A DNA stretch of 64,000 nucleotides, taken from assembly GCF_003426735.1 (NCBI RefSeq), contig NZ_QVON01000002.1:124001-188000 (forward strand). Direction: 5' to 3'. A model generated the notes under the pieces. That model saw only the letters and a list, made by a program, of their open reading frames with translations, had not been told where the DNA came from and searched no databases. Every line of letters starts with the position of its first letter. The first letter of the stretch is position 1. The DNA comes from Arenibacter sp. P308M17. Lineage in GTDB: Bacteria > Bacteroidota > Bacteroidia > Flavobacteriales > Flavobacteriaceae. Shown here one piece after another: positions 8,708-14,201 of this stretch. A program made the position numbers and the translations under genes.

Positions 8708-11554
8708 TTAATTTTGTAGCTCCAATTCCTTTCTCAAAAATTTTGAGGTGTAGCTCTTTTTATCAAGGGCCACTTCTTCCGGAGTACCTTCAGCAACTAA
8801 CATGCCACCATTGCGACCTCCTTCGTAACCAATATCGATGATATGGTCTACCATTTTTATAACATCCATATTGTGTTCAATGACCAGAACGGTATTTCCC
8901 TTGTTTACAAGCTTGTTTAGCACCTGCATCAGTACCCTGACATCCTCAAAGTGTAGTCCGGTCGTTGGTTCGTCCAAAATATAAAAGGTATTCCCCGTGT
9001 CCCTTTTGGATAGTTCCGTTGCCAACTTGATGCGTTGTGCTTCTCCTCCCGATAAGGTGGTAGATTGCTGTCCCAAGGAAATGTACCCCAATCCCACATC
9101 CTGTATGGTCTTTAATTTTCGATAGATCTTGGGGATATTCCCAAAAAATTCAACAGACTCGTTAATGGTCATTTCCAATACGTCGGCTATGGATTTGCCC
9201 TTATATCTTATCTCCAAGGTTTCCCTGTTAAAACGTTTCCCGTTACACGTCTCACAATCCACATACACATCGGGAAGGAAGTTCATTTCGATAACCCTTA
9301 GACCTCCTCCTTGACAAGTCTCACATCGTCCCCCGGCAACATTAAAACTAAAACGTCCAGGCTTGTACCCTCTAATGGAGGCTTCCTGGGTCATTGCAAA
9401 AAGCGACCTAATTTCGCTGAATACACCGGTGTAGGTAGCCGGATTGGATCGGGGCGTTCTTCCAATAGGGGACTGGTTAATATCTATTACCTTGTCCAAA
9501 TGTTCCAGGCCCTTGATTTCCTTGTAGGGCATAGGGACCTTTACCCCATTAAAATAATGGGCATTTAAAATTGGGTATAGGGTTTCGTTGATGAGGGTAG
9601 ATTTTCCACTGCCGGAAACCCCTGTAACTCCTATCATTTTTCCCAAAGGGAAACGTACCGAAACATTTTTAAGATTATTTCCGGAACACCCTGATAATTC
9701 CAAGATATATCCATTTCCTTCCCTCCGCTTTTTTGGAACTACTATTTTTAATTTTCCGGAGATATAATCTGCCGTTAGGGTATTATGGTTTTTTAGATCT
9801 GAAGGTTTCCCTTCGGAAATTATTTCCCCACCATGTTTTCCTGCTTTTGGTCCAATGTCTATTACATGGTCCGCACGTTCTATCATATCGCGGTCATGTT
9901 CTACCACAATGACCGAATTACCAAGGTCTCTGAGCGATTCCAAAGACTTTATTAAACGCTCGTTATCCCTTTGGTGCAAACCAATACTGGGTTCGTCCAA
10001 AATATAAAGAACACCGACCAATTGCGACCCAATTTGGGTGGCCAACCTAATACGCTGTGCCTCGCCACCTGAGAGCGATTTACTACTTCTGTTCAAGGAG
10101 AGGTAATCCAGGCCAACATCCAAGAGAAATTGGACCCTTGTTTTGATTTCCTTTATTATTTCCTCGGCAATTTTTAATTGATTGCCCTCCAATTTTTTCT
10201 CCAGACCCTTAAAGAAATCGGCCAATTCTGCAATATCTAAATTGGACAGATCGGCAATATTTTTGTTGTCTATTTTAAAATTCAGGGACTCTTTTTTTAA
10301 CCTGCTGCCATCACAGGTGGGACATTTAATTTTGTCCATGTATTCCTTGGCCCAACGTTTAATAGTAGTGGAGTTGGCCTCGTTGAACTGACTTTTTATA
10401 AAATTGGAGATGCCTTCGTAATCTATTTTGTAGATGCGCTTTACCCCCAATGTTTTCGATTCTACCTCAAAACTTTCCTTACCCCCATATAGCAGTACTT
10501 GAATGGCCTCTTCGGGTACTTTGAAAATTGGGGAAGTAAGTTCAAAGTTATATCGTTGCGCAATGGTCTCTATCTGTTTAAAGGCCCAGGAATTTTTATA
10601 TTCGCCCAGGGGTGCAATACCACCTCCTTTTATGGATAGGCTTTTGTTAGGGAAAATTTTGTTTTCATTTACCTCATAAATATGGCCAAGGCCATTGCAA
10701 TCGGGACACATACCCTTTGGCGAATTAAAGGAAAAGGTATTGGGTTCGGGCGAAGGGTATGAAATTCCAGTAGTGGGACACATTAGGTCCCTACTGAAAT
10801 ATCGCGGCACTTCGGCTCCTTCCTCCAAGATCATCAATACATTGTCACCACTGTACATGGCCGTATTGATTGTTTCCGAAATACGTTTGTCCAGTTCGGC
10901 ACTTTCTTCAATCTTGAGTCGGTCAATAACGATTTCAATATCATGGGTCTTATAGCGGTCAACTTTCATGCCTTTTACAATGTCCCTGATTTCCCCGTCT
11001 ACCCTTACCTTGACGAAACCTTGTTTGGCAATCTGTTCGAACAGTTCCCTATAGTGGCCTTTTCTGGATTTTATGATAGGGGCCAGTATATTTATTTTCT
11101 TGCCCTTATAGGAAGTTATGATCAATTCCATTATCTGTGCATCATCATAGCTTACCATCTTTTCTCCTGTACGGTAACTATAGGCATCGCCTGCCCTTGC
11201 AAACAAAAGCCTCAGGAAGTCATAGATTTCGGTAATGGTACCTACGGTGGACCTTGGGGATTTTGAAGTGGTCTTCTGCTCTATGGCAATTACTGGTGAA
11301 AGTCCATCTATCTTGTCCACATCCGGCCGCTCCAATCCGCCCAAAAACTGTCGGGCATAGGCCGAAAAAGTCTCGATATAGCGTCTTTGGCCTTCGGCAT
11401 AAATGGTATCAAAGGCCAGGGATGATTTGCCGCTTCCCGAAAGTCCGGTAATGACCACCAGCTTTTCACGGGGTATGGTAACATCTATATTCTTAAGGTT
11501 ATGCACTCTAGCGCCTTTAACCTCAATATTCTCTTCGTAATGGATCATTTTCAT
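8708..11554 (-). CDS. uvrA: Excinuclease ABC subunit A
   Basis: A 948-aa protein, close to the 940 aa of E. coli UvrA. It is the damage-recognition ATPase of nucleotide excision repair, which loads UvrB. Two ABC ATPase modules are complete: Walker [15 protein letters not shown] (N-terminal) and [14 protein letters not shown] (C-terminal), with signatures [13 protein letters not shown] and [13 protein letters not shown]. The C-terminal zinc finger has CETCQGGG and CETCNGKR. The first zinc module reads CPTTG where many UvrA proteins have CPxCG, so one ligand is changed; the second half, CPDCNGLG, is intact. It is a single gene, divergent from the protein starting at 11669. Confidence 0.97.
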
Positions 11555-11668: not shown

Positions 11669-12196
11669 ATGCAGCTTTTAGGAATAGGTTCACGAATTGA
11701 TCATAGCGAATTCGGAAAAGGGGTCGTTACCAATGTTACGTCCAAACATTATTGGGTTACTTTTATGGACAATGGTTTGGAAACCATAGATTTGGATTCT
11801 GATTTTGAAGTTATAGAAGCTGTGGAGGACGAGGTGGATACCATAAGTTTTTCTGAAGTGGAACAATCGCTGATCTCTATATTGAAGCGCTGGAGCGATG
11901 CCAGTTCCATTACGCCGATTGCCGACAAATGGAAGGGCGGGAATATAATTTTAAAACCTGGGGATGCCAATTTATCCGAGAAGGAAATCCCAATGGATAC
12001 CTTTTTTCATAAAATAGTCATGATCAGGGACCGGATTAGGGTCATGGAGCAGAAAATAAACAGCAGTAATAATTTGGATGATCAGGAAAAAGTGGACCTG
12101 CAACAGTATATAACCCGGATTTATGGAAGCCTAACCACATTTAACGTGCTTTTTAAAAATCAAAGCGATAATTTTGTGGGGGAGAAAACCAGATAA
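11669..12196 (+). CDS. Conserved hypothetical protein with CarD/UvrD-tail-like N-terminal module
   Basis: A 175-aa protein I do not recognise by name. Residues 5-45 (GSRIDHSEFGKGVVTNV, then VTFMDNGLETIDLD) resemble the small SH3/Tudor-like module at the C-terminus of UvrD-type helicases and in CarD-like proteins, which bind protein or nucleic acid. The rest is charged and probably helical, with a likely coiled coil about residues 105-145. No signal peptide or membrane segment. It is divergent from uvrA (114 bp apart) and converges on the TIGR03915-type gene. A link to DNA repair is suggested only by position and the N-terminal module. Confidence 0.7.
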   Translation: MQLLGIGSRIDHSEFGKGVVTNVTSKHYWVTFMDNGLETIDLDSDFEVIEAVEDEVDTISFSEVEQSLISILKRWSDASSITPIADKWKGGNIILKPGDANLSEKEIPMDTFFHKIVMIRDRIRVMEQKINSSNNLDDQEKVDLQQYITRIYGSLTTFNVLFKNQSDNFVGEKTR

Positions 12197-12368: not shown

Positions 12369-13094
12369 TTATACGGCCTTCTTTTCATTTACCATTGCCA
12401 TTCGGTGTTGTACGGAATATGGTGAATGTGGGTGCAACTTATTATTTATCAGTTGTTTTATATTAGTGTGGGCAATGTTGCCGGTACCATCATAAGCCGA
12501 TAATTCCAAGGAAATAATTTCTACGGTATAACGATTGTAATAAATGGCATACTTCCTTTTCCGATCGTAGACCATAAATTCCTGACCATAAAATTTAGAC
12601 CTAAAATATTTGGAAATAAGAGGCAGTACATCGAAATCGGGGGAAACATTGGAAAAAAAGATCTGGTCTTGTGATATTTCAAAATTCGCAATGGCCTCTA
12701 TTCTATGTTTTTCACGGGCCACCATTCTGGAGTGTTGCTGAATTTTTAAAACAATTTCCGATATTCCATCAATAGGGTTTTCATCGGGATTGGCATACAT
12801 AGAGCGGATGTACTGGTAAAGAAGAAGCTCAATGCCTTTGGTCTCACTCAAAAAGGCAAAATAAATGGACTTAATGGCCGCATTGTTTTTGTTCTGTATG
12901 CTGTTCCAAACCCGCCTGGCCTTGGCCATCTCGGTAAAAATAGTTATCGCCTCAGAAAACAGCCCCTTTTGAAGCTCTCTGTTTTTTTGGATATCCGCTA
13001 CCGGGATCCTCTCCTCAAAAATTTTGAAAACCGTAGTTAAAAAACCATTAAAACTGCCGTCGTAAATTAAAATTTTGGGATTTTCCATAATCAT
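12369..13094 (-). CDS. TIGR03915-type DNA metabolism/repair protein
   Basis: A 241-aa protein matching the TIGR03915 family (often called SAM-7-linked or putative DNA repair protein): ILIYDGSFNGFLTTVFKIFEE at the N-terminus, RRVWNSIQ near residue 62, and the C-terminal AIYYNRYTVEIIS and HSPYSVQHRMA. In known genomes it is paired with a radical-SAM protein (TIGR03916), sometimes with a uracil-DNA-glycosylase-like domain fused. Here no radical-SAM gene is present. Instead a 59-codon ORF overlaps the start by 4 bp (ATGA). Two in-frame ATGs lie at 13094 and 13088; the first gives the overlap. The gene is probably controlled by the operators at 13302-13355 through the upstream ORF. Biochemical activity is unknown for the family. 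Confidence 0.85.
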   Translation of the reverse strand: MIMENPKILIYDGSFNGFLTTVFKIFEERIPVADIQKNRELQKGLFSEAITIFTEMAKARRVWNSIQNKNNAAIKSIYFAFLSETKGIELLLYQYIRSMYANPDENPIDGISEIVLKIQQHSRMVAREKHRIEAIANFEISQDQIFFSNVSPDFDVLPLISKYFRSKFYGQEFMVYDRKRKYAIYYNRYTVEIISLELSAYDGTGNIAHTNIKQLINNKLHPHSPYSVQHRMAMVNEKKAV

Positions 13095-13270
13095 TCAAAT
13101 AAACTGAGTTGTACACTTGATTCCTTTTTTAAACGCCTTCTTTTCGTTTTTAACAAATGACCTTTGGCCAGGCCATTCCCGTTCTTTGGATTAACCGAGA
13201 CAAAGTGACTGTCCTCCATCCCGGAAAACGCCAGACTACTTAATTTTTGATGCAGATCTTCCAAAGTCAT
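13091..13270 (-). CDS. 59-aa basic protein ending in a sliding-clamp-binding motif
   Basis: Reading the minus strand from ATG at 13270 gives an uninterrupted 59-codon ORF. It starts MTLEDLHQKLSSLAFSGM, has a basic centre (KTKRRRLKKE, about residues 41-50) and ends QLSLFE. QL[SD]LF is the consensus beta-clamp-binding pentapeptide. The stop TGA overlaps the next gene's ATG (ATGA), which argues for translation. A TATATTTG -7 box (13301-13294) lies 23 bp before the ATG, and an in-frame stop lies further upstream. It may be a genuine small clamp-binding protein, or an internally deleted remnant of the radical-SAM partner expected at this place. I do not recognise a family. Confidence 0.6.
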   Translation of the reverse strand: MTLEDLHQKLSSLAFSGMEDSHFVSVNPKNGNGLAKGHLLKTKRRRLKKESSVQLSLFE

Positions 13271-13293
13271 TTTTTTGGTATTTGTAATTATTC

Positions 13294-13370
13294 CAAATAT
13301 ATGGATAAATTCCTAATTATGGAAATATTCCAGTATTTTTTTTGGATATATTCCAAAAACCGTATATTTG
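13294..13370. promoter_or_regulatory. Divergent promoters with three operator-like dyads
   Basis: Three copies of a 13-bp dyad close to TGGAWATATTCCA occur at 13302-13314 (TGGATAAATTCCT), 13320-13332 (TGGAAATATTCCA, a perfect dyad) and 13343-13355 (TGGATATATTCCA). The third sits inside a longer TTTGGATATATTCCAAA. For the plus-strand regulator, TTTG (13341-13344) and TATATTTG (13363-13370) are 18 bp apart, so the third dyad covers the -33 region. On the minus strand TATATTTG (13301-13294) abuts the first dyad. Binding by the adjacent LexA-like repressor is inferred from this placement. Confidence 0.7.
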
Positions 13371-13433
13371 GAGCTAATCTATATGGACAAAGGGCCATAC
13401 TTATATGGACAATATGAAATTAAAACCTGTACT

Positions 13434-14201
13434 ATGAACGAGGATATGGAAATTGTGACCAAGCGTTTTACCGATTTACGACGGGATTTGGGATATACCC
13501 AATCAGATTTTGCCCACTTGCTCGGAATTTCAAATACCACGGCGGACATTGAAAGGGGCCGTACCAAATTATCGGGAAAGGTGGTGGCCGAATTGCTAAA
13601 ACAATTTAAAATAAACCCACTTTGGCTATTTGGCGAAAGTTCACAAAAATATTTATCGGTCACCAATATCAGTGTTATTCCCAAAGTGGTTACGGTAAAT
13701 TCATCCGAAAACGAGAATATGGTATTGGTGAACGCAAAAGCTGCGGCAGGATACCCCCAGAACATTCAGGACACCAGTTGGTACAAACAACTTCCCGCCT
13801 TTGATATTCCCTTGCCAGAGTTCAGAAATGCCACTTATAGGGGTTTCCAAATTGAAGGGGACAGTATGCTGCCCAATCTGAAGCCAGGGGAATGGGTTTT
13901 GGCCAGGGCCATGGAAGGACTAAAGGATATTAACTCCAATAAAATTTACGTGGTGGTATTACAGGACGCAATTTTGGTAAAGAAAATTGAAAAATCTCCC
14001 GATCCGGCCATAATTTCCTTAATTTCCATAAATGAAAACTATCCTCCATACAGCGTTAACACAGAAGACCTACAAGAACTTTGGCAGGTTAGCAGCAAAA
14101 TAACCTTTGGTGTGGACGCAACTTCCGAAAAAGGATTGCTAAGGCAACTGCAGGAATCCATGGATGAACTAAAAAATCAATTGAAGAAGGTCAATAATTA
14201 A
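13434..14201 (+). CDS. LexA-like repressor: XRE HTH plus S24 autoprotease domain
   Basis: A protein of 255 aa from ATG at 13434; upstream frames start with TTG (13368) or an ATG too near the predicted transcription start. Residues 8-60 form an XRE-type helix-turn-helix (GYTQSDFAHLLGISNTT). The C-terminal half is an S24/LexA peptidase: predicted cleavage bond Ala105-Gly106 in KAAAGYP, nucleophile Ser144 in EGDSMLPN, and Lys183 or Lys184 in ILVKKIEK. Spacings are LexA-like, so RecA-stimulated self-cleavage is plausible. A coiled-coil tail ends the protein. It is divergent from the TIGR03915 operon across three dyads, so probably an autoregulated damage-response repressor. It differs from classical LexA in its HTH type. 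Confidence 0.88.
   Translation: MNEDMEIVTKRFTDLRRDLGYTQSDFAHLLGISNTTADIERGRTKLSGKVVAELLKQFKINPLWLFGESSQKYLSVTNISVIPKVVTVNSSENENMVLVNAKAAAGYPQNIQDTSWYKQLPAFDIPLPEFRNATYRGFQIEGDSMLPNLKPGEWVLARAMEGLKDINSNKIYVVVLQDAILVKKIEKSPDPAIISLISINENYPPYSVNTEDLQELWQVSSKITFGVDATSEKGLLRQLQESMDELKNQLKKVNN

Follow-up and report, generated by a model that had tools for sequence, protein, structure and literature searches.

A frame of 59 codons that ends in a sliding-clamp-binding pentapeptide and lies directly in front of a TIGR03915 (DUF4130) gene raises the question whether so small a protein is a genuine product, and what it could do for its neighbour. The frame, referred to here as mini, is located in a stretch of 64,000 nucleotides from Arenibacter sp. 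P308M17 (the window), where it runs on the minus strand from 13270 to 13091, with the ATG at 13270–13268 and the TGA at 13093–13091. Its product, MTLEDLHQKLSSLAFSGMEDSHFVSVNPKNGNGLAKGHLLKTKRRRLKKESSVQLSLFE, ends in QLSLFE, in agreement with the description given in a sequence-only reading of this DNA; a plus-strand frame over the same interval is ruled out by several stops. Three parts can be distinguished: an N-terminal segment (codons 1–20, 13211–13270, MTLEDLHQKLSSLAFSGMED), a basic and variable linker (codons 21–53, 13112–13210) and the canonical β-clamp-binding pentapeptide QLSLF (codons 54–58, 13097–13111). The basic centre that had been noted in the sequence-only reading is evident from the composition of the linker, in which nine Lys and Arg residues stand against a single Asp or Glu among 32 residues; across 24 diverse minis the linker contains 27% Lys and Arg and 6% Asp and Glu. 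Mini is matched by no model in a Pfam and NCBIfam profile search. The CxxxCxxC iron-sulfur motif and the radical-SAM body are absent from the 59 residues, judged by sequence and by these two libraries, and a helix-hairpin-helix (HhH) gave no Pfam match.

Within the genus, mini precedes TIGR03915 in 17 of 18 Arenibacter genomes, the window's genome being counted among the 18; A. amylolyticus (G011) possesses TIGR03915 and lacks an intact mini. All Arenibacter homologues end in Q[LIFP][SN]LF, and the columns invariant in 17/17 are Met1, Thr2, Leu10, Leu13, Asp20, Gln54, Leu57 and Phe58. Judged by these columns, mini is conserved mainly at its two ends. For the 11 closest genomes pooled, the pN/pS ratio amounts to 0.444 over the whole gene (codon-bootstrap 0.327–0.587), to 0.322 for codons 1–20, to 0.570 for the linker and to 0.065 for the last seven codons; with all 17 homologues the corresponding values are 0.555, 0.320, 0.790 and 0.148. 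In the last seven codons of the 11 closest genomes synonymous sites vary (pS 0.400) and amino acids barely do (pN 0.026), which indicates that selection acts on the tail peptide. The sequence-only reading had named homologues without the terminal pentapeptide and a dN/dS near 1 as findings that would speak against it; the pentapeptide is retained in 17/17 members of the genus and in the more distant aligned homologues, and pN/pS lies well below 1. The possibilities that the frame is a mere shadow of another gene and that the QLSLFE ending arose by chance were rejected, and mini is confirmed as a real gene. Aligned minis are 53–75 residues long. Outside the family, a search of 295 class-level genomes returned three matches at E ≤0.05, one of which is the window's own; the other two were rejected, lying inside larger frames, one of them with stops. 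A phage search for mini gave no match. Mini represents a family of small Flavobacteriaceae proteins, absent from the profile libraries searched (Pfam, NCBIfam).

The gene that follows mini is TIGR03915, recognised with 150.9 bits against a cut-off of 112.25 by a profile match that ends at 195 of 243 positions. Its open reading frame on the minus strand begins at 13094, and the 4-bp ATGA overlap with mini, to which the sequence-only reading had drawn attention, is literally present (13094–13091). The overlap is, however, not conserved: the Arenibacter relatives examined lack the upstream ATG, and their TIGR03915 starts with MEN or MEK from the ATG that corresponds to 13088; in most relatives this conserved ATG sits two bases past the mini stop. 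Since relatives use this second ATG, TIGR03915 probably does not begin at the overlap, and the true arrangement is probably stop, two bases and ATG, which would place the gene at 12369–13088. As a conserved coupling device, the ATGA overlap was rejected.

On the other side, mini shares a control region (13271–13433) with a divergent gene on the plus strand (13434–14201), whose product combines a HTH and a Peptidase_S24 domain (Pfam) and thus resembles a LexA-like repressor. The common intergenic region contains TGGA..ATTCCA-like palindromic repeats and is similar to the leader in front of TIGR03916, a putative repair gene, in relatives. The repressor displays a visible Ala-Gly site (AAAGYP), which we take, from the biology of LexA, to be a cleavage site. 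With these elements, repressor control of the mini operon is a reasonable reading of the sequence. TIGR00498 (LexA) has no match in the window's genome; the S24 protein may substitute for LexA, and similar operator repeats precede the loci of many relatives. Beyond TIGR03915, a gene of 175 residues on the opposite strand (11669–12196) separates it from uvrA (8708–11554, minus strand, assigned by profile match), a common neighbour of these loci.

The sequence-only reading had taken QL[SD]LF as the clamp-binding consensus. The accessible part of PMC12309361 describes QL[SD]LF, or more generally QxxLF with positions 1, 4 and 5 mattering most, as a common clamp-binding motif, and the QLSLF of mini fits it. 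In mini the motif is situated at the very C-terminus, an accessible place, and is under purifying selection. The host DnaE1 has QVSLF and the host Y-family polymerase has QIDLF, and the host clamp therefore probably reads this QxxLF code; in the second DnaE-like polymerase of the window's genome no QxxLF was seen. A very small protein that bears a consensus clamp motif and is encoded next to an S24 repressor could also be a competitor, that is, a free peptide made on damage that displaces polymerases from the clamp and slows replication, and the available portions of PMC9690074 and PMC12795458 describe SocB and RipA as clamp-aimed toxins that can act in this way. Each accepted mini, however, adjoins either TIGR03915 or a TIGR03916-TIGR03915 pair, its N-terminal segment is conserved though needless for a bare competitor, and no antitoxin-like partner was recognised by inspection. 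The constant location at TIGR03915 loci speaks for a tether rather than a free competitor, the latter appearing distinctly unlikely.

The loci of relatives indicate what the tether may stand for. In a sample of 397 Flavobacteriaceae genomes, TIGR03915 was detected in 138 and TIGR03916 (putative DNA modification/repair radical SAM protein, rSAM_link_UDG) in 101; at canonical loci TIGR03916 precedes TIGR03915. TIGR03915 matches of at least 249 bits fall in precisely these 101 TIGR03916 genomes and in no others. The remaining 37 TIGR03915 loci, derived from 36 genomes without TIGR03916 and from a second copy in G295, have no adjacent TIGR03916; they score at most 218 bits, 27 of them stop at profile position 188–204, and the C-terminal PKRYWKYL is kept in none. 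L172 and L173, which match only the C-terminal part of TIGR03915, stand outside these 37. The TIGR03915 of the window lacks PKRYWKYL at the C-terminus, and a profile search found no TIGR03916 in the window's genome. The DNA upstream of the 37 loci encodes a small protein that combines the N-terminal pattern with a terminal QxxLF in 19 cases and none in 18, counted by eye (16/34 loci plus the Arenibacter genomes G000, G004 and G010). TIGR03915 can thus persist without mini, as it also does in A. amylolyticus.

A named set of 80 loci comprises 22 with mini, 49 with TIGR03916, eight with neither and one fossil, after reading of the DNA had led to L271, first counted as mini, being classed as fossil and L304, first counted as having neither, being classed as mini. 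P[KR]RYWKYL terminates TIGR03915 at 44/49 TIGR03916 loci versus 0/22 mini loci. The five TIGR03916 loci without the exact sequence are L256 and L257 (PKRYWKYM), L306 (PKRYWRYL), L283 (contig edge) and L309 (altered end); L272, which has neither gene, retains PKRYWKYL. In 67 of the 80 loci uvrA is found downstream on the same strand. The leaders of mini and TIGR03916 loci are alike, both containing repeated GGAATAATTCC-like elements and ...TTTTTGGAATAATTACAAA before the ATG. From the last TTTGGA of the leader to the start codon, the distance is 22–34 bases at 22/22 mini loci, and 21–28 bases at 35 of the 46 TIGR03916 loci (out of 49) that entered the comparison; in the remaining 11 of the 46, TTTGGA is absent or more than 28 bases away, and L290 has a wrong start. 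By start position, leader, the TIGR03915 that comes next and the nearby uvrA, mini is the positional equivalent of TIGR03916.

At the fossil locus L271, only CAG CTA AGT TTA TTT AAT TAG (QLSLFN-stop) is left between the leader and TIGR03915, two bases before the latter. Together with the loci that have no mini and the one Arenibacter without an intact copy, such fossil tail codons would suit a decaying relic, a remnant that follows loss of the enzyme and is kept only for translational coupling into TIGR03915. This is highly improbable, because the excess of synonymous over amino acid changes in the last seven codons of the 11 closest genomes reveals selection on the peptide. A further locus, L280, is doubtful and may hold a degraded version of the L271-type tail.

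TIGR03916 itself often ends in a motif like that of clamp-binding proteins. In 101/101 proteins of the family sample, QLxLF (100) or QMSLF (1) occurs within the last 16 residues, and three proteins of the same family beyond the 101 (G513, G638, G576) end in QL[ST]LLND. In a wider set of 51 loci, 34 TIGR03916 proteins were recognised by pattern, and a Qxx[LIMV][FYW] tail is found in 28 of these, or in 22 of 28 after subtraction of six genomes already in the 101. Such tails are found, among others, in two alphaproteobacteria, in a clostridium and in Spirosoma; L339, L363 and Paracoccus L373 (QLALI) have TIGR03916 without the tail. The other 17 loci, which form another group of relatives, were read with a looser pattern: three have QxxLF, 11 end in QLVLPG[LI][FY], L355 has QMLLPGLHA, L362 is truncated where its contig stops and the longest frame in L368 is not the right one. 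The QLVLPG[LI][FY] ends recall the QLSLPL peptide of Hda, as it is given in the accessible part of PMC12309361. In the TIGR03916 of L277, Pfam detects Radical_SAM above the cut-off and HHH_3 just below it. The C-terminal QLxLF is a feature of TIGR03916 found here, outside any published definition seen, and no mention of a tail of this kind was found in a literature search. Searches on TIGR03915, TIGR03916 or their short names, on DNA repair by radical SAM proteins that have a clamp-binding motif, and on small proteins that have such a motif for the sliding clamp found nothing, nor was the substrate of the TIGR03916-TIGR03915 pair found stated in the literature searched; for DUF4130, PMC3765255 was the only paper found. 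The sequence-only reading had offered a tiny adaptor or competitor. Since TIGR03916, the usual partner of TIGR03915, has a like tail and mini takes its place, the adaptor side of that proposal gains support, whereas the competitor side is less likely given where the minis stand.

The likeness of mini and TIGR03916 appears to extend to the N-terminus, which in TIGR03916 has a KLxxLADAAKYD-type pattern. Among 402 TIGR03916 windows compared with mini columns 2–20 (Met left out), the one at column 2 scored best (z 5.0, next 2.6), so that the two align without offset from their start codons, and the last eight mini columns matched the TIGR03916 end with z 6.6. Hand-set cores gave rank 1 of 404, with z 4.55 versus 2.46 for the next window. 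A mini score matrix found the N-terminal window best in 98/101 TIGR03916 proteins; the median TIGR03916 score was reached by 3/18845 background windows and by 0/53 N-termini of long ORFs of the window, and the consensus score by 0/20000 shuffles. With hhalign, mini 1–30 aligned with TIGR03916 3–32 at P 0.0007 and a probability of only 26%. For the linker, profile windows gave no clear match to TIGR03916. On these sequence comparisons, the tail of mini and apparently also its N-terminus (about 20 residues) resemble the ends of TIGR03916, and everything between them is missing. Similarity of this kind could also arise by convergence, if an unrelated small gene had gained a clamp tail and its N-terminal likeness were a common amphipathic-helix pattern. 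Short motifs evolve easily, and in a control the same mini columns match an unrelated TIGR03915 helix (column 108) with z 4.2. Convergence would nevertheless have to account for the exact register from the start codon, the like leader, the same slot and the rarity of the TIGR03916 median score among background windows and ORF N-termini, and it is quite improbable.

In one genus (g180, genomes G200 and G379, loci L244 and L174), mini, TIGR03916 and TIGR03915 are arranged side by side in this order, which means that mini does not replace TIGR03916 in every case. In addition to mini, the Arenibacter genomes G001, G003 and G008 possess a complete TIGR03916-TIGR03915 pair at another place. A tree of TIGR03915 sequences trimmed of the C-terminus shows loci with mini and loci with TIGR03916 intermixed; it requires 8 changes of the mini label, two or more of them imposed by well supported branches, so that no single clean origin emerges. 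Both the side-by-side arrangement and the interleaving would be expected of an old separate small subunit, not derived from TIGR03916, if an ancestor had held all three genes and lineages had lost one or the other. Mini and TIGR03916 occur together, however, in only 2/101 TIGR03916 genomes by the pattern used (the upstream stretch of G217 being short, and upstream hits in L124, L200 and L243 having been set aside by eye because they lack the N-terminal pattern), and start position, leader, N-terminal segment and tail are all like TIGR03916 itself, which makes such a subunit unlikely. Derivation of mini from a TIGR03916 gene by internal deletion would agree with these likenesses. Coexistence in one genus leaves room for duplication or ancestral coexistence, and mini may have originated by internal deletions that recurred, by a duplication with later deletion, or from an ancestor that had both genes. 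It is conceivable, at somewhat less than an even chance, that a radical-SAM gene has collapsed, perhaps several times in one family, to its two docking ends, leaving a strap of 53–75 residues that was selected as a tether between TIGR03915 and the clamp.

A structure model of the window's TIGR03915 (mean pLDDT 83.8) gave PAP phosphatase, RecJ and Cdc45 chains as the best 13 matches listed, with Z from 10.0 to 8, although the tool warns that top Z values of 7 to 8 are in themselves frequent; Foldseek returned nothing at E <0.001 with the same model. PAP phosphatase, RecJ and Cdc45 chains share the DHH fold, and a RecJ/Cdc45/PAP-phosphatase-like fold is predicted for TIGR03915/DUF4130. No solved structure matches TIGR03915 by sequence. 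A uracil-glycosylase-like fold, which we had assumed for this protein, is not among the 50 matches listed, a result that does not by itself exclude it. The structure prediction of TIGR03916 was poor (mean pLDDT 40.1) and was left out of use. Residues 40–44 of TIGR03915 (12957–12971, minus strand) form another QxxLF, located in a loop that is modelled with somewhat less confidence; its Q, L and F are invariant in 67/67 aligned rows, and Qxx[LIM]F is present in 74/90 wider rows. This loop motif may be either a second clamp contact or simply structural.

With slightly better than an even chance, mini substitutes in minimal form for TIGR03916, the radical-SAM repair protein, and most likely serves as a clamp tether for TIGR03915. 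It would keep the likeness of the first ~20 residues and of the tail of TIGR03916, joined by a short basic linker, and dispense with the catalytic and HhH body. As the two ends of TIGR03916 would do, the C-terminal QLSLF would occupy the binding pocket of the sliding clamp, DnaN, and the N-terminal segment would hold TIGR03915; the basic linker may lie along the DNA. Once the S24 repressor is inactivated, presumably on DNA damage, TIGR03915 with its predicted RecJ/Cdc45-like fold would still be delivered to the clamp.

The sequence-only reading was largely right on the peptide and missed its resemblance to TIGR03916. The wider significance of the peptide lies with this partner enzyme, and the mini system is a variant of the TIGR03916-TIGR03915 repair system. 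Mini resembles TIGR03916 in slot, leader, the TIGR03915 downstream, the terminal QLxLF and apparently the first 20 residues, but has neither radical-SAM nor HhH body nor CxxxCxxC, and its length contrasts with the ~420 residues of TIGR03916. MutS and Hda are among the clamp-binding proteins with a QL[SD]LF-type motif. The consensus that the accessible part of PMC12309361 gives for PolC and other β-clamp-binding proteins fits the terminal pentapeptide of mini; these are, however, large proteins that bear the motif as a tag, whereas mini conserves little beyond the tag and its binding is predicted. To SocB and RipA, aimed at the clamp pocket according to the available portions of PMC9690074 and PMC12795458, mini is likened by its predicted target, and unlike them it is tied to a repair gene. 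MicroProteins, as far as the accessible text of PMC7534434 goes, likewise are small proteins that keep only interaction parts of a larger one, which seems to hold for mini; they disrupt the larger parent by pairing with it, whereas in the window's genome the larger protein was not found.

If a TIGR03916 gene has indeed collapsed to its two docking ends, mini would be a bacterial counterpart of a microProtein, an enzyme reduced to its address label, and TIGR03916 enzymes would act at the sliding clamp. The clamp-motif tail on 101/101 sampled Flavobacteriaceae TIGR03916 proteins points the repair pair at replication forks and offers a direct assay. A natural enzyme-less version with both ends would separate recruitment from catalysis and allow TIGR03915 to be studied alone, and it illustrates that what is conserved of a larger function can reside in a gene too small for routine annotation. 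At two loci on alphaproteobacterial plasmids (L373, L375), the gene after TIGR03916 bears the annotation UdgX family uracil-DNA binding protein; UdgX-type uracil-DNA binding proteins can be fused to DUF4130.
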